A stretch of 49,926 bases of DNA from NCBI GenBank assembly GCA_021794575.1, contig JAJYQO010000068.1:1-49926 (forward strand), in the 5' to 3' direction. The translations under genes and the position numbers were made by a program. The stretch's first letter is position 1. Every line of letters starts with the position of its first letter. The stretch is from Pseudomonadota bacterium (lineage in GTDB: Bacteria; Pseudomonadota; Gammaproteobacteria; Xanthomonadales; Rhodanobacteraceae). This document shows positions 40,104 through 46,937 of this stretch, piece after piece. Under the pieces are notes generated by a model, which saw only the letters and a program-made list of their open reading frames with translations, did no database searches and was not told the origin of the DNA.

Positions 40104-41408
40104 TCAGCACGACGGGTCGGCCAGCAGCAGCGCGCGCAGGGCGGCATCGTCGGCGGTGAGCGGCAGGCTGTGGCTGGGCCGTGCCAGCCATCGCGCCAAC
40201 GCCTCCGGTACCGCGACGGCATGGCCGAAGACCGGCTCGACCACTTCGGCAAACTTGGCGGGGTGCGCGGTGGCGACAACGGCGTAGTCGCCGCGCTCGT
40301 CCTGTGCGCGCAGACGTTCGAGCACGTGCAGCGCCGTGGCGGTGTGCGGGCAGGGCTCGATGCCGTGGTGCGCGGCGGCGGCGTGCAGGGTGGCGACGAT
40401 GGCGTCGTCGTCGACAGTGAACGCGGACAAATCCGCGCGCAGCGCGGCATCGTTGGAATAGAGCGCGCGCAGGCGCTCGAAATTGCTCGGTGCGCCCACG
40501 TCCATGGCGTTGGCCAGGGTGCGCCGGCCGGGCCACGTGGCATAGGGTTCGCCGGCGAAATAGCGCGGCAGCGTATCGTTGGCGTTGCAGGCCAGCACGA
40601 TGCGAGCGATGGGCAGGCCCATGCGGCGCGCGATCACCGCCGCCAGCGCGTTGCCCAGGTTGCCGGTGGGCACGACGAAGGACAACGCGCGGCCGGTGCC
40701 GCGCCAATGCGTCAGCGCGGCCCAGGCGTAGTAGCCGGCCTGCGGCAGCAGGCGGCCCAGGCTGATGCTGTTGGCCGAACCGAGGGCCACGCGCGTGCGC
40801 AGTTCTGCATCGCCCAGCGCGGCTTTGACCATGCGCTGGCAGTCGTCGAAGGTGCCGTCCACGCGGTACGCCTGCACGTTGCCGTCGAAGGCGCCCAGTT
40901 GCCGCGCCTGGCGCGGCGCCACACCTTCCTGCGGGTACAGGATCAGCACGCGGAAACCGGCGCGGCGGTGGAAAGCCGCGGCCACCGCGCCCCCGGTATC
41001 GCCGGAGGTGGCGACCAGAATCGTCCGCAACGGGTCATCCGGCATGCGCAGCCGTGCCAACGCCGCGGCGAGAAAACGTGCGCCGATATCCTTGAACGCG
41101 GCGCTGGGGCCGTGGAACAGTTCCAGCACGTGGTCGCCGGCGCCGCGCAGTGCGTGCAGCGGTATCGACTGGGCGAAAGCCTCGTCGCACAGCATGGACA
41201 ATCCGGATTCGAGCGCACTGCCGGCGAAATAGGGCGCCAGCAGGCGCGCGCCGACTTGCGCCGGCGTATGCGCTCCCGCGAACGCATCGGGTTCCAGGAC
41301 CGGGATGTGCTCGGCTAGGTACAACCCGCCATCCGGCGCCAGGCCCGCCTGCAGCACCTGGACGAGATCCGCAGTGGGCGCCGCGTCGCGCGTGCTCAGG
41401 AACCGCAT
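40104..41408 (-). CDS. thrC: threonine synthase
   Basis: ThrC converts O-phosphohomoserine to threonine with pyridoxal phosphate. The 434-residue product is of the longer class: LSTRDAAP at the start, the PLP lysine 106 in HGPSAAFKDIGARF, then ATSGDTGGAVAAAF and FVVPTGNLGNALAA. GGAGG eight bases before ATG 41408 is an excellent ribosome site placed inside the end of thrB, so the genes overlap by 13 bases. It is the last gene of thrABC and converges with proA. Confidence 0.96.
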   Translation of the reverse strand: MRFLSTRDAAPTADLVQVLQAGLAPDGGLYLAEHIPVLEPDAFAGAHTPAQVGARLLAPYFAGSALESGLSMLCDEAFAQSIPLHALRGAGDHVLELFHGPSAAFKDIGARFLAAALARLRMPDDPLRTILVATSGDTGGAVAAAFHRRAGFRVLILYPQEGVAPRQARQLGAFDGNVQAYRVDGTFDDCQRMVKAALGDAELRTRVALGSANSISLGRLLPQAGYYAWAALTHWRGTGRALSFVVPTGNLGNALAAVIARRMGLPIARIVLACNANDTLPRYFAGEPYATWPGRRTLANAMDVGAPSNFERLRALYSNDAALRADLSAFTVDDDAIVATLHAAAAHHGIEPCPHTATALHVLERLRAQDERGDYAVVATAHPAKFAEVVEPVFGHAVAVPEALARWLARPSHSLPLTADDAALRALLLADPSC

Positions 41409-42343
41409 TCGACCACCTCCGCTGCCGGGCCCTCGACCGGCGCCACCCAGCCTTCGCTGTCCAGGCCTTCGGCGCGGAACGCCGCGCGCATGGCTTCGTG
41501 CGCGCGCTGTGCGCTGCCGACATCCCGACACCACGCGAACACACTGGGACCGGCGCCGGAGAGGCTGCCGCCCAGCGCACCGGCATCCAGCAGCGCCTGC
41601 TTGACACGCGCGAAGCCAGGCACCAGCGGCGCACGGCGCGGCTCGACCAGCACGTCGTGCAGGCCCTCGCGCAGCAGTTCGAGATCGCCGCGGTAACAGC
41701 CGGCCAGCAATTGCGCCAGGTGCGCATTCTGCCGCACCACATCGTGCAGCGCGTAGGGCGCGGTCAGCACCGCGCGCGCGCGGCGTGTTTCTAGCACGTA
41801 GTGCGGATGTACCACGGCACAGTGCAAGTCGGGGGGCACCGGGACGCGCAGCACGCGCTCGGCCGTGGTCAGTGTGAGGCCGCCCAGCAGCATCGGCCCG
41901 ACGTTGTCGCCGTGGCGCGCACCGCTGGAGGCCGCCTCGCCGCTGATGGCGTGCGGATAAAGCGCCTCGCGGCTCAGAGGCTCGGGCAGCAACGCATTGG
42001 CGGCCACCAGCGCGGCTACGCTGGAGGCTGCCGAGCCGCCCAGTCCGGCACCGAAGGCGATGCCCTTGCGGATTTCGATTTCAATGCCGAAACCGGGCCG
42101 TAATGCATCGAGCAGCGCCAGCAGCGCGACACCGGCGGTGTTGCGCGTGGCCTCGCGTGGCAGCGCGACGGCGCTGCCGGTGATGGCGGCGATGCGCACA
42201 CCGGGCCGCGTGCTGCGTCGCGCCAGCACTTCGTCGCAAGGGCCGGTGAAAGTGTGGCCCAGCAGATCGAAGCCGGCAGCGACATTGCCGACGCTGGCCG
42301 GTGCGCGCGCCAGCACCCATTCGGGTTGCATGCGGACATTCAT
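41396..42343 (-). CDS. thrB: homoserine kinase
   Basis: ThrB phosphorylates homoserine using ATP. The 315-residue GHMP kinase has the N-terminal ARAPASVGNVAAGFDLLGH and the phosphate loop GLGGSAASSVAALVAAN near residue 95. The C-terminal motif LSGAGPSVFAWC (here GGSLSGAGPSVFAWCRD) is intact. The ATG overlaps the thrA stop (ATGA), so translation is coupled, and thrB in turn overlaps thrC. Confidence 0.96.
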   Translation of the reverse strand: MNVRMQPEWVLARAPASVGNVAAGFDLLGHTFTGPCDEVLARRSTRPGVRIAAITGSAVALPREATRNTAGVALLALLDALRPGFGIEIEIRKGIAFGAGLGGSAASSVAALVAANALLPEPLSREALYPHAISGEAASSGARHGDNVGPMLLGGLTLTTAERVLRVPVPPDLHCAVVHPHYVLETRRARAVLTAPYALHDVVRQNAHLAQLLAGCYRGDLELLREGLHDVLVEPRRAPLVPGFARVKQALLDAGALGGSLSGAGPSVFAWCRDVGSAQRAHEAMRAAFRAEGLDSEGWVAPVEGPAAEVVECGS

Positions 42344-44811
42344 GGGGCTCTCCGTAGCTGGCCGGCCAGACGCAGGATGTCGGCGAACACGCCGGCGGCG
42401 GTCACCTCGGGACCGGCGCCTGGCCCCTGCACCACCAGCGGATTGTCGCAGTAGCGGCGGGTGCGGAACTGCACCAGATTGTCGGTGCCGTGCAGATGCG
42501 CGGCGGCATGTGTGGGCTCGACCTCGACCAGACCGACGCGCGCCGCGCCCTGCGCATCCAGGCGGGCCATCAGGCGCAGCACCCTGGCGCGTTCGCGCGC
42601 CTGCCCGAGGCGCGCGGCCAGTGCCGCATCCAGTTCGTGCGCGCGCGCCATGAACACCGCGCGCGGCAGTGCCGCGAGTTCCGCGGGCACCAGGCTTTCC
42701 ACTTGCACCTGCGCCAAATCCAGCGGAAGACCAGCCTCGCGCGCCAGGATCACCAGCTTGCGCGCCACATCCAGGCCGCCGAGGTCGTCGCGCGGATCGG
42801 GTTCGGTATAGCCCTGCGCGTGCGCATGGTGCAGCAGTTCCGAGAACGGCGTGCTGCCGTCGTAGTGGTTGAACAGCCAGGACAGCGTGCCGGACAGCAC
42901 GCCCTCGATGGAAACCAGATCGTCGCCGGTATCGATCAGCTCGCGCAGGGTCTGGATCACCGGCAGACCGGCGCCGACGCTAGCCTCGTAGCGCAGCTGC
43001 GCGGCGCCCTGCGCCGCGGCTTCGCGGATGGTCCGCCAGCGTGCGAGATCGCCGCCCAGCGCGCGCTTGCTGGGCGTGATCACGTGCAGCCCGGCGCGCA
43101 GCCAGTCGGCGTAGGCATCGGCCGTCGCCTCGCTGGCGGTGCAATCGATGATGACAGCGTGCGGCAGATGACCAGGCTGCACGTGCGCGACCAGCGCAGC
43201 GGCATCAAGCGCCGCGCCCTGCGTCAACCGTGCGCGCCAGTCCGCGGGCAGCGTGCCGTCGCCGTCCAGCCACATGCGCCGGCTGTCGGCGATGGCGCGG
43301 ATGCGCAGGTCCAGCCCATGTCGCTCGCGCAGTCGCGGTTGCGCCGCGCGCAACTGTTCGAGCAGGGCGCGGCCCACCTGGCCGCAGCCGATCACGCCGA
43401 TGGCCAAGGTCTGGTCGGACAGCAGAAACGCCGCGTGCGCCGCACGCAGGGCGCGCGTGGCGTCGTCCGCGCCGACCGCCAGCGAAATGCTGCGCTCGCT
43501 GGCGCCCTGGGCAATGGCGCGCACGTTGACGTGGGCACGGGCGATGCCGGCCAGCAGCCGCGCCGCCACGCCGGGATGGCCGGCCATGCCTTCGCCCACC
43601 GCGCTGAGGATGGCGCTGCGCGCGCGCAGGCCGATGCCCTGAATGCTGCCGGCGGCGATTTCGCCGGCGAAAGCACCGAGCAGCGCGTCCTGCGCGCGCA
43701 CGGCATCCGCCGCGCGAACCGCGCAGCAGATCGAGTGTTCGGAAGAACCCTGCGAGATCATGCTCACCGAGATGCCGGCCGCGTGCAGCGCGCCGAAGAC
43801 CCGCTCGGCGGTGCCCGGTACGCCGAGCATGCCGGTGCCTTCCACGTCCAGCAGCGTGATGCCGGCGAGCAGGCTGAGGCCTTTCACCGGCAGCGTACAG
43901 TCGACCTTCGCGTCGATGCGCGTCCCTGCATCCTGCGCGGCGAAACTGCTGCGCACACGGATCGGCAGCCCGCGCTGCATGGCCGGCGCCATGGTTTGCG
44001 GATGGATGACGCGCGCGCCGAAGTAGGCCAGTTCGCAGGCTTCGCTGTAGCTGAGCTGCCGCAGCGGGCGCGCTTCCTCGACCAGGCGCGGATCGGCGCT
44101 GAGCACGCCGGGCGTGTCGCCCCACAAGGTCAGTTCGCGCGCGCCGGCCAGCGCGGCGAAGATCGCCGCGGAATAGTCGCTGCCGTTGCGGCCGAGCGTG
44201 GTCGGCGTGCCATCGGCCAGTCGCGCGATGAAGCCGGTGACGACTACGCGCGATGCGGTTTCCACGCGGCGCCAGGCATCCCAGTCGGCCTGGCTGCGCG
44301 ACCAGTCCACCACGGCGCCCGGTTCGTCCCAGCGCACGGTCAGCACGCGGCGCGCATCCAGCAGCGCGCAGGGCATGCCGTCCTGGCGCAGCAGCGCGGC
44401 CAGACACAGCGCGCTCCACCATTCGCCGCGACCGTGTACGTGCGCGCGCGCGGCGTCGGTCCAGCCAGTGGTCCGCGCCTGCGCGATCCGTGTGGCGATC
44501 TCTGCGACGTCGGCCTCGAGCGTCGCCAGGACCGGTTCGATGCCGAGCTGCCGTGCCAGCGACCGCTGCCGCTCGCGCAGACGCGTCAGCGTCGCGTCCG
44601 GGTCGTCGTTCGATGCAGTCAGCGCCACCAGTGCGTCGGTGACACCCTGCATGGCCGAGACGACGATGACCTGCATCGGCTCACGTTGTGCGCACAGGAT
44701 GGCTGCCACGCGGCGGAAGCACTCGGCATCGGCCAGGCTGGAGCCGCCGAACTTGTGCACGCACGGGCGCGCGTCGGAAGGGTCGTGATCAGGGTCTTCG
44801 ACAGCAGACAT
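42340..44811 (-). CDS. thrA: bifunctional aspartokinase / homoserine dehydrogenase I
   Basis: The 823-residue fusion catalyses the first and third steps from aspartate to homoserine. The kinase domain begins CVHKFGGSSLADAECF near residue 17 and includes LGRNGSDYSAAIFAALAGA. Two ACT domains follow (GTGMLGVPGTAERVF and GMAGHPGVAARLLAGIARA), the usual threonine-binding regulatory part. The dehydrogenase domain starts with the Rossmann motif GVIGCGQVGRALLEQL near residue 468 and contains ITPSKRALGGD and EGVLSGTLSWLFNHY. ATG 44811 has CGGAGAA about eight bases upstream. The longer upstream frame is the threonine-codon leader read out of register, so it is not coding here. Confidence 0.95.
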   Translation of the reverse strand: MSAVEDPDHDPSDARPCVHKFGGSSLADAECFRRVAAILCAQREPMQVIVVSAMQGVTDALVALTASNDDPDATLTRLRERQRSLARQLGIEPVLATLEADVAEIATRIAQARTTGWTDAARAHVHGRGEWWSALCLAALLRQDGMPCALLDARRVLTVRWDEPGAVVDWSRSQADWDAWRRVETASRVVVTGFIARLADGTPTTLGRNGSDYSAAIFAALAGARELTLWGDTPGVLSADPRLVEEARPLRQLSYSEACELAYFGARVIHPQTMAPAMQRGLPIRVRSSFAAQDAGTRIDAKVDCTLPVKGLSLLAGITLLDVEGTGMLGVPGTAERVFGALHAAGISVSMISQGSSEHSICCAVRAADAVRAQDALLGAFAGEIAAGSIQGIGLRARSAILSAVGEGMAGHPGVAARLLAGIARAHVNVRAIAQGASERSISLAVGADDATRALRAAHAAFLLSDQTLAIGVIGCGQVGRALLEQLRAAQPRLRERHGLDLRIRAIADSRRMWLDGDGTLPADWRARLTQGAALDAAALVAHVQPGHLPHAVIIDCTASEATADAYADWLRAGLHVITPSKRALGGDLARWRTIREAAAQGAAQLRYEASVGAGLPVIQTLRELIDTGDDLVSIEGVLSGTLSWLFNHYDGSTPFSELLHHAHAQGYTEPDPRDDLGGLDVARKLVILAREAGLPLDLAQVQVESLVPAELAALPRAVFMARAHELDAALAARLGQARERARVLRLMARLDAQGAARVGLVEVEPTHAAAHLHGTDNLVQFRTRRYCDNPLVVQGPGAGPEVTAAGVFADILRLAGQLRRAP

Positions 44812-44854
44812 CGCGGTTCTCCGGGAGGACCGCCGGCCTGCGCTGCGTGTGCTA

Positions 44855-44880
44855 ACCCGCCGCGCCTGCCGGCGGCGGGT
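44855..44880 (-). terminator. attenuator hairpin between thr leader peptide and thrA
   Basis: On the minus strand ACCCGCCGC (44880-44872) pairs with GCGGCGGGT (44863-44855) around an 8-base loop. It lies 14 bases after the leader-peptide stop and about 45 before thrA. The leader's CGGCGGCGG, just after the threonine codons, is complementary to CCGCCGCCG in the terminator's 5' arm, giving the alternative antiterminator expected for attenuation. Only TTA follows the stem, so the T-tract is poor. Termination might need Rho or NusA help. Confidence 0.6.
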
Positions 44881-44894
44881 GACGAGTGGGTGAA

Positions 44895-45041
44895 TCAGTC
44901 CACGCGCCGACCGCCGCCGAGTGCGGTGGTCGTGGTAGTCGTGGTGGCAGTGCGGACATGGGCCGCATGCCTGCGTCCCGCGGCGGCACGCGCGGGCATG
45001 GCGCGATGCGGAAATGCGACGGGGCGGGCGGGGCAGACCAT
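44895..45041 (-). CDS. thrL: thr operon leader peptide with seven consecutive threonine codons
   Basis: A short frame ends HVRTATTTTTTTALGGGRRVD. The codons 44945-44925 read ACC ACG ACT ACC ACG ACC ACC, with one more Thr two codons earlier. It ends at TGA 44897-44895, 83 bases before thrA. E. coli ThrL is likewise threonine-rich, though mixed with isoleucine. Ribosome stalling at these codons when charged tRNA-Thr is scarce would favour the antiterminator. The start is uncertain. ATG 45041 fits a near-leaderless transcript from the candidate promoter. ATG 44999 would give 34 residues. Neither has a clear Shine-Dalgarno site. Confidence 0.75.
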   Translation of the reverse strand: MVCPARPVAFPHRAMPARAAAGRRHAAHVRTATTTTTTTALGGGRRVD

Positions 45042-45048
45042 GCCCGGA

Positions 45049-45077
45049 GTGAATCCCGCGCCGCATGCTTTTGTCAA
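45049..45077 (-). promoter_or_regulatory. candidate thr operon promoter
   Basis: TTGACA at 45077-45072 (minus strand) is a perfect -35 hexamer. Spacings of 16 or 17 bases lead to GATTCA or ATTCAC, weak -10 candidates. A start near 45043 would begin almost at the leader ATG 45041. The region is shared with the divergent glycosyltransferase gene, whose strand carries GATAAT at 45104-45109. Confidence 0.4.
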
Positions 45078-45212: not shown

Positions 45213-46937
45213 ATGACCCAGCGCAGCCTGCGCCGCCGCGCACAGACCGTTTATGCCGTGCTCGGCGTGCTGGCTCTGCTGGGCCTGCGTCTGGCTTCGG
45301 CCTGGTCGTTGCGCGTGGACTCGGACGAGCCGCAGCACCTGCATGTCGTGTGGGCATGGACGCAAGGCCTGCTGCCCTACGTCGATCTATTCGACAACCA
45401 CACGCCGCTGTTCCAGTTGCTGATGTCGCCGCTGCTGGCGCTGCTGGGCGCACGCGCCGACATCGTGCCGTGCATGCGCACCGCCACGATTCCGGTCTGG
45501 ACGCTGGGCCTGGCGCTGACCTGGTGGCTGGGACGGCGTCTGTGGGATGCCCGCGTGGGTTGGGTGGCGGCGACACTGACGGCGCTGTTTCCGCTGACCT
45601 ATCTGTCCAGTGTGCAGTTCCGCACCGACGACCTGTGGTGGGTGCTGTGGGTGGCGGGCGTCGCGGTCGCGGCGCTGGGCGCGCCGGACCGCCGTCGGCT
45701 GGCCGCGGCCGGGCTGCTGATAGGGCTGAGCTTCGCGGTGTCGATGAAGACCACGCCGCTGCTCATCACCCAATTGCTGGCGTTGGGTCTGCTGGGCGTG
45801 CTCTGGCATTGGCAAGGACGCGCGATCGTCTGGCGTACCTGGCTGGGTGCGCTGCCCGGCGCGCTGTTGGGACTGCTGCTGCCACTGGCCGCGTTTGCGG
45901 TTTTTTTCGCGGCGCACGGTGCGCTTGGTCGTGCCTGGTATTTCTGGATCGGCTACAACATCGTGCCGGGCATGGGCCCATGGACCGGCAGCCGCCTGCA
46001 ATATCTGTTGTTTCCGACGGTGTCCGTGCTGGTGGCGCTGGTGTCCTGGCGGCGCTTGCGCGTCAGCACCGATGCGGTGTTGACGCTACGCCGGCTGGCG
46101 ATGTTCGATGGCGCGGCGTTGTACCTCGCGGCGCTGCTCAGTTATTGGCCGCTACTGACCCTGCAGGACCTGTTGCCGGTGGTGCCGCTGCTGATGCTGG
46201 GAGCGAGCGGCACACGGCTTGCCCACACGCGGCGTATCGGCTGGGGCTTCCGGCTGGCGCTGGCGTTGGAGTTGCTGACGATCCTGGCGGTGCGCCCGCC
46301 ATGGCGCGACCGGCTGCTGCAGCGGCAGGAGCGTGAGCTGGCACTGGTGCTGCGACTGACGCATCCGGATGATTTCGTGATGGACGCCAAGGGCGAGGCC
46401 ATCTTCCGCCGGCGTCCGGTGTTCTGGGTATTCGAGGACATCGCCGAGTACCGCATCGCGCATGGGTTGCTGCACCCGCAGGTGCGAGTCCATCTCGAGC
46501 GCACCGGCACGCCCGTGGTGATCGACCATCGCATGCCGGACAGCGCCGAACCGTTCATCGCGCGCAACTATCTGCCGCTGCAGGGCAACGTACGCGTGCT
46601 GGGCCAACGCTTCACAGTGGCGCAGGCGCGACGGCCGGTGCTGCTGCCGATCGCGATCCCGCAGCGTTACGTGCTGCTGGATGCGCAGGGTCGCAGCGCC
46701 GCCGCGCGCATCGATGGGCGCGCCGTCACCGGCGCGGTGGCCTTGACGCGGGGTTGCCACACGCTGGAAGTGCCAGCCGCCGGCCCCTATCTGCTGCTGT
46801 GGGCGCCGGCGATTCGGCGCGGGCTGGATGCGGCGGCGCTGCTGGCGCTGCCGGCGCAGCGGCAGGCGGCGCCGGCGGCAACCACCGAGGCGGCACTGCA
46901 GTGCCGCCAGTTGGGTGCCACCGGGGTGCTCGACTAG
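45213..46937 (+). CDS. family 39 (ArnT/PMT-like) membrane glycosyltransferase
   Basis: The 574-residue protein has an N-terminal membrane helix, then a periplasmic loop with WSLRVDSDEPQHLHVVWAW; the acidic residues at 36-39 are in the position used by GT-C enzymes. It has about ten membrane segments up to residue 370 and a soluble C-terminal domain of roughly 200 residues (from HPDDFVMDAKGEAIFRRRPV). Such enzymes move a sugar from a polyprenyl-phosphate donor to a lipid or protein in the periplasm. I chose ATG 45213; an in-frame ATG at 45108 would add a non-hydrophobic Arg-rich tail. Its stop shares CTAG with the convergent gene. The acceptor is unknown. Confidence 0.83.
   Translation: MTQRSLRRRAQTVYAVLGVLALLGLRLASAWSLRVDSDEPQHLHVVWAWTQGLLPYVDLFDNHTPLFQLLMSPLLALLGARADIVPCMRTATIPVWTLGLALTWWLGRRLWDARVGWVAATLTALFPLTYLSSVQFRTDDLWWVLWVAGVAVAALGAPDRRRLAAAGLLIGLSFAVSMKTTPLLITQLLALGLLGVLWHWQGRAIVWRTWLGALPGALLGLLLPLAAFAVFFAAHGALGRAWYFWIGYNIVPGMGPWTGSRLQYLLFPTVSVLVALVSWRRLRVSTDAVLTLRRLAMFDGAALYLAALLSYWPLLTLQDLLPVVPLLMLGASGTRLAHTRRIGWGFRLALALELLTILAVRPPWRDRLLQRQERELALVLRLTHPDDFVMDAKGEAIFRRRPVFWVFEDIAEYRIAHGLLHPQVRVHLERTGTPVVIDHRMPDSAEPFIARNYLPLQGNVRVLGQRFTVAQARRPVLLPIAIPQRYVLLDAQGRSAAARIDGRAVTGAVALTRGCHTLEVPAAGPYLLLWAPAIRRGLDAAALLALPAQRQAAPAATTEAALQCRQLGATGVLD

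Follow-up and report, generated by a model that had tools for sequence, protein, structure and literature searches.

A predicted threonine attenuator upstream of thrABC in the Xanthomonadales, probably with an output other than classical intrinsic termination

The closest described counterpart of the leader reported here is thrL of E. coli (RF00506), which it resembles in its position, in its Thr-rich leader peptide and in a stop codon about 85-90 nt before thrA. Unlike E. coli thrL, the leaders of the clade studied here lack a U-tract, hold the SD of thrA in a hairpin and apparently encode a peptide without an upstream untranslated stretch. In mycobacteria, leaderless poly-cysteine short ORFs attenuate cysteine operons (Canestrari et al. 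2020, as cited in PMC9031893 and PMC13236596), and cysteine genes are described as translation-attenuated in PMC13236596. The mycobacterial frames share with our leader a short ORF, which is probably leaderless here too, a run of one codon and a biosynthetic operon downstream. They differ in that our leader concerns threonine, belongs to another phylum and keeps an E. coli-type core of competing helices (2:3 and 3:4), and in that folding predicts no consistent SD release on stalling. In Sinorhizobium meliloti, the attenuator RNA of trpL, upstream of trpE(G), begins with the leader peptide ATG (PMC7298713). Our locus probably shares this leaderless start, whereas trpL concerns tryptophan and is described as acting by transcription attenuation, which yields a terminated leader RNA. 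A comparative study of attenuators in proteobacteria, dated 2004, is cited in PMC1262725, and the thr leader of the order may have been predicted earlier.

The window, that is, the whole stretch of 49,926 nt that was analysed, carries thrABC on its minus strand, downstream of the leader as the initial annotation had stated. The products of thrA, thrB and thrC all exceeded the NCBIfam cut-offs, and the start codon of thrA was ATG 44811 (-). The seven consecutive Thr codons were found at exactly the coordinates first given for them, with an extra Thr codon, ACT, upstream of the run at 44951-44949 (-). The short frame did end just ahead of a 9-bp hairpin (44880-44855), the arms of which, ACCCGCCGC (44880-44872) and GCGGCGGGT (44863-44855), enclose a loop of 8 nt. 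ATG 45041 was the likeliest start of the leader ORF, ATG 44999 being an alternative. A divergent 574-aa frame at 45213-46937 (+), adjoining the thr promoter, had no NCBIfam match.

Table 1. Elements of the thr leader and operon in the window
Feature	Coordinates	Strand	Details
-35 box TTGACA	45072..45077	-	TTGAC in 64/64 leaders, TTGACA in 62/64
-10-like hexamer TTCACT, weak relative to TATAAT	45048..45053	-	18 nt past the -35 box
Leader peptide ORF MVCPARPVAFPHRAMPARAAAGRRHAAHVRTATTTTTTTALGGGRRVD	44895..45041	-	48 codons + TGA; ATG 45041 is 6 nt past the -10 hexamer
Control codons, seven consecutive Thr	44925..44945	-	ACC ACG ACT ACC ACG ACC ACC
Leader stop TGA	44897-44895	-	In frame
Region 2 CGGCGGCGG	44911..44919	-	Antiterminator-like helix with region 3; shuffles and covariation in relatives
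Region 3 ACCCGCCGCCGGC	44868..44880	-	Pairs with regions 2, 4 and 5
Region 4 GCGGCGGGT	44855..44863	-	3' arm of the 3:4 hairpin; tail TAGCACACGC without U-tract
Region 4'	44840..44850	-	Predicted fold: partner of 44865-44855 if region 3 is occupied by 2 or 5
Region 5 GCCGGCGG	44830..44837	-	Complements region 3; overlaps the 5' arm of the SD hairpin
SD hairpin GCGGTCCTCCCGGAGAACCGC	44813..44833	-	SD GGAG at 44822-44819
thrA, bifunctional aspartate kinase / homoserine dehydrogenase I	42340..44811	-	NF006959, 904 bits (cut-off 726)
thrB, homoserine kinase	41396..42343	-	NF002288, 334 bits; TIGR00191, 176 bits
thrC, threonine synthase	40104..41414	-	Start approximate; TIGR00260, 232 bits (cut-off 167)

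The density of Thr codons exceeded what shuffled DNA produced. Any ten consecutive codons held at most 8 Thr codons in the real sequence; when the upstream region was shuffled 20,000 times under a first-order Markov model, not even 7 were reached. The DNA upstream of thrA was read in genomes of the family (197) and the order (160), as well as in named records. A Thr-rich frame preceded thrA in 79 distinct loci, belonging to families f1, f2 and part of f4 and including Lysobacter ruishenii, L. daejeonensis and Silanimonas lenta; leaving out near-identical loci gave the set of 64 leaders used throughout. The frame started roughly 115-185 nt, and stopped 75-113 nt, upstream of thrA. The alignment of relatives proposed at the outset as a check thus found the Thr run kept at a near-fixed distance from thrA, and the paired arms kept with compensatory changes. 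In the thrA upstream regions of families f3, f5, f10 and f12, no Thr-rich leader frame was seen. Since 79 relatives from three families have the arrangement of the window ahead of thrA, the sequence data lend good support to a threonine-sensing, ribosome-mediated attenuator ahead of thrABC, and threonine sensing through ribosome stalling is, in our estimation, very probable. Two genomes encode an additional full-length protein resembling ThrA (G050:C1:5863404-5865785 and G091:C1:501054-503426), with 44% identity to the ThrA of the window. In Lysobacter ruishenii, a TPP riboswitch (RF00059, 58.3 bits; L003:989-1095, minus strand) lies upstream of the thr leader and opposite to it.

The run itself varied in composition. 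Ile codons occurred within it in 39/64 leaders and Met codons in 15/64, so that the Thr-only run of the window is one end of a range; the statement that the leader has Thr but no Ile codons holds for the species of the window and fails for the clade. Met codons stood beside Ile and Thr codons upstream of thrA in L101, L111, L114, L116 and others (for example TIIMTTTMTT and TMMMTTTMTT). The presence of Met codons in the run suggests that such leaders may sense methionine as well. Vitreschak and colleagues reportedly described, in 2004, regulation of thrA by Thr, Ile and Met in Pasteurellales.

The promoter showed the same regularity. Most relatives had a -35/-10 spacing of 17-18 nt and a -10 hexamer similar to that of the window (TCCACT, TTCACT, TCAACT). 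The first ATG lay 35-38 nt from the start of the TTGACA box in 61/64 leaders, with a mode of 36, i.e., 6 nt past the -10 hexamer; two leaders had it at 29 and 32 nt, and in one the start was apparently GTG. In 63/64 leaders, the first ATG behind the promoter was in frame with the Thr run and open through it. The SD motifs GGAG, GAGG and AGGA were found ahead of the leader ATG in 0/62 leaders; they preceded the thrA start in 64/64, SD motifs having also guided the choice of thrA starts. Because of the promoter spacing, the -10 box being a weak match, and the missing SD, transcription should start at or beside the leader start codon, and the leader peptide would be leaderless.

Downstream of the run, we found two mutually exclusive helices, 2:3 and 3:4, with one strand in common. 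Within region 3, the sub-segment 44878-44870 (CCGCCGCCG) pairs with region 2, 44880-44872 with region 4 and 44875-44868 with region 5. That a leader segment (44919-44911) can pair with the 5' arm of the hairpin had been proposed initially, and this pairing beat 100/100 dinucleotide shuffles of segment 2, even though the whole 75-nt fold gave a z-score of -1.3 only in this GC-rich DNA. In relatives, the 2:3 helix showed compensatory changes at three pairs and a covariation score of 0.143 vs 0.058 when shuffled; 0/500 shuffles scored as high, and sliding the partner abolished the score. The 3:4 helix was mostly invariant, with 89.5% of cells paired, and its closing pair was A-T in the window and T-A in the congener L087. 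We also compared native partners with partners taken from leaders less than 75% alike, a swap test in which shared ancestry is uncorrected. With this limit, the test favoured 2:3 (p 1e-3 and 1e-2) and the pairing between the middle region and region 3 (p 1e-4 and 2e-2). A surprise was that it also favoured 3:5 (p 2e-4 and 6e-6), region 5 being located just upstream of the thrA SD. For the window alone, the 3:5 pairing gave p 0.07. Swap tests detected no covariation for the middle region-5, 2-5, 3-SD and 2-SD pairings.

In sequence, the core common to E. coli thrL and most relatives of the window reads GGTGCGG / CCGCACC / (A/G)TGCGGG. The E. coli core is GGTGCGGGC / GCCCGCACC / AGTGCGGGC; most relatives combine GGTGCGG in region 2 with CCCCGCACC in region 3 and GGATGCGGG in region 4, and the window has GGCGGCGG / CCGCCGCC / GCGGCGGG instead. 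In the MAFFT alignment, the genus of the window was out of register in region 2 and registers were mixed near the SD; therefore, the pair counts lean on genera other than that of the window. A covariance model built without this genus, for which RNAalifold picked the 2:3 helix alone, recovered untrained Lysobacter leaders (E 4e-8 and 3e-7) and, weakly, congeners of the window; a search with it did not find the window leader.

The 3:4 hairpin lacks the tail of an intrinsic terminator. The absence of a real U-tract, pointed out for the window in the initial annotation, extended to the whole clade: the 8 nt after the hairpin contained 1.2 U on average, and at least five U in 0/64 leaders, with two or three U kept past the stem in the genus of the window. 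In E. coli, L256 and L258, the thr leader contains a run of six to nine U. We counted U-tailed hairpins in 200 kb of two genomes of the order and found 19 and 18, vs 4.0 and 7.7 expected from shuffles. Moreover, branched-chain leader peptides (..LLVLVLIT.. and ..VLVLVLIT..) were observed in two genomes of the order (L236 and L238), roughly 170-280 nt upstream of an ilvC match. These ilvC leaders have the same, apparently leaderless TTGACA-to-ATG layout, with a core of GGTGCGGG / CCCGCACC / GGTGCGGG in L236, and differ from the thr leaders in their branched-chain codons and canonical TTTTTT tail. Since these bacteria do have U-tailed terminators and a U-tailed ilvC attenuator, the absence of the U-tract at thr is no general habit of theirs. 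The regions upstream of hisG had been tried as a control for the U-tract, contained no convincing His leader, and were replaced by ilvC. The early suspicion that termination might differ is strengthened by these data as far as the clade-wide absence of U-tracts goes and remains a suspicion as regards the output step.

A second feature set these leaders apart: a local hairpin encloses the thrA SD. The median unpaired probability of the thrA SD was 0.20 vs 0.42-0.43 for 64 SD-led genes of two genomes (p 1e-9), and vs 0.42 in 21 leader-free thrA genes, some start codons of which are uncertain (p 4e-7). The pair beside the nearly invariant GAG of the hairpin was C-G in 35 leaders, U-A in 9 and G-C in 5, and the native arm fitted better than swapped arms (p 1.3e-4 in a test anchored on the SD and uncorrected for shared ancestry). 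Visual inspection revealed no SD hairpin in the thr leader of E. coli, L256 or L258. The U-tract may have been lost and the SD hairpin gained in one and the same event. The interval between regions 4 and 5 was rich in C (0.49) and poor in G (0.16), C exceeding G in 49/49 leaders of sufficient length; in the window itself it is mildly C-rich. A TAGAAT motif (CCGGTAGAATGC) resembling a -10 box is conserved in this interval, immediately ahead of region 5, in L119, L121, L123 and L115.

On balance, we consider it probable that the locus is a threonine attenuator with an output other than classical intrinsic termination. A ribosome would initiate at the leaderless AUG of the leader ORF. When Thr-tRNA is scarce, it would stall within the Thr run, leaving region 2 free, and 2:3 would form; when threonine is plentiful, it would reach the stop codon and 3:4 would form. 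Because the clade has no U-tract and the thrA SD is located in a conserved hairpin, the 3:4 state is most likely no intrinsic terminator, and we regard it as quite likely that the output, taken by itself, is not classical intrinsic termination. Among the other outputs, Rho/polarity and direct translational control appear about equally probable. Our preferred guess is that the closed SD would cause poor translation of thrA, and that C-rich single strands beside 3:4 would then allow Rho-dependent termination, whereas 2:3 together with 4:4' would hide the C-rich segments from Rho. Judged by base composition, the C-rich interval and the poorly accessible SD would fit Rho-dependent termination, and the sign would be right; local hairpins resembling 4:4' appeared in the folds of many relatives.

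In folding models with the footprint of a stalled ribosome masked, 2:3 formed in 42/64 leaders; with the ribosome masked at the stop codon, 27/64 leaders formed 3:5, which would free the SD. In the window, the at-stop state favoured the 3:5 fold over the 3:4 fold by 4.1 kcal/mol (-38.9 vs -34.8). In the growing transcript, though, 3:4 would be the earlier of the two to fold because it is local. Points against the preferred model are that 3:5 is hard to fit into it, that the interval is no more than mildly C-rich in the window, and that the covariance model made without the genus of the window missed the window leader.

A possibility was that region 3, by its choice of partner (2, 4 or 5), directly sets the SD hairpin of thrA open or closed, in a translational attenuation like that of erm or the mycobacterial poly-cysteine frames. 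The conserved, covarying SD hairpin is confined to leader-bearing thrA genes, 3:5 covaries and would open that hairpin, and the leader ORF appears to be leaderless, as in the mycobacterial cases described in PMC9031893. Yet the models revealed no consistent switch in SD accessibility between the stalled, at-stop and naked states. Moreover, 3:5, where formed, comes with the ribosome at the stop codon, so that plain SD release would turn thrA on under plentiful threonine, which is the wrong sign. For these reasons, simple SD release was dropped as the best explanation, and we hold translational attenuation of this kind to be somewhat doubtful.

Classical transcription attenuation is, to us, less plausible still. 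According to this explanation, 3:4 terminates without a U-tract, thanks to a very stable stem or to help from NusA/NusG; independently of this, the SD hairpin slows translation at all times. The 2:3/3:4 competition is indeed the same as in E. coli, the window has a strong 3:4 stem (-19.4 kcal/mol) and its genus keeps two or three U after the stem. However, the near absence of U from the tails of bacteria that keep U-tracts at the ilvC attenuator and other terminators argues against it, and it leaves both the SD hairpin and the covariation of 3:5 unexplained. Finally, a chance Thr-rich frame next to GC-rich hairpins, with no regulatory function, would account for the weak local-fold z-score of the window and the missing Rfam Thr_leader match, but the run, frame, spacing, promoter and pairings are conserved across three families, and we consider this highly improbable.

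The window leader would work in the manner of the E. coli thr leader and probably shares its ancestry, even though it lacks two features by which the E. coli-type family is defined, the U-tract and the RF00506 match. RF00506 gave no match at E up to 5 in the window or in 12 further leader loci, and none at E up to 2 in 4 loci (3 of them additional); E. coli scored 122.1 bits, L258 46.5 and L256 39.9. The thr leader of L258 (1340-1460), a control from outside the order, has Thr, Ile and Met codons (TTIIMMTITM) and a canonical U-tract and falls below the Thr_leader gathering score of 55. Whether the sensor was kept E. coli-like and the output exchanged, with a folded thrA ribosome-binding site acting directly or via Rho, a leaderless peptide and a region 3 with three partners (2, 4 and 5), seems to us evenly balanced. 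If true, the sensing half of a textbook attenuator would have been kept and its output half exchanged in a large group of bacteria, Lysobacter and Silanimonas among them. For annotation, the order offers a rule for finding leaders: TTGACA, 17-18 nt, a -10 box, an in-frame ATG and a codon run. The output step is the interesting part of this threonine-linked leader, as it raises the question of how ribosome stalling would control an operon whose leader hairpin lacks a U-tract.
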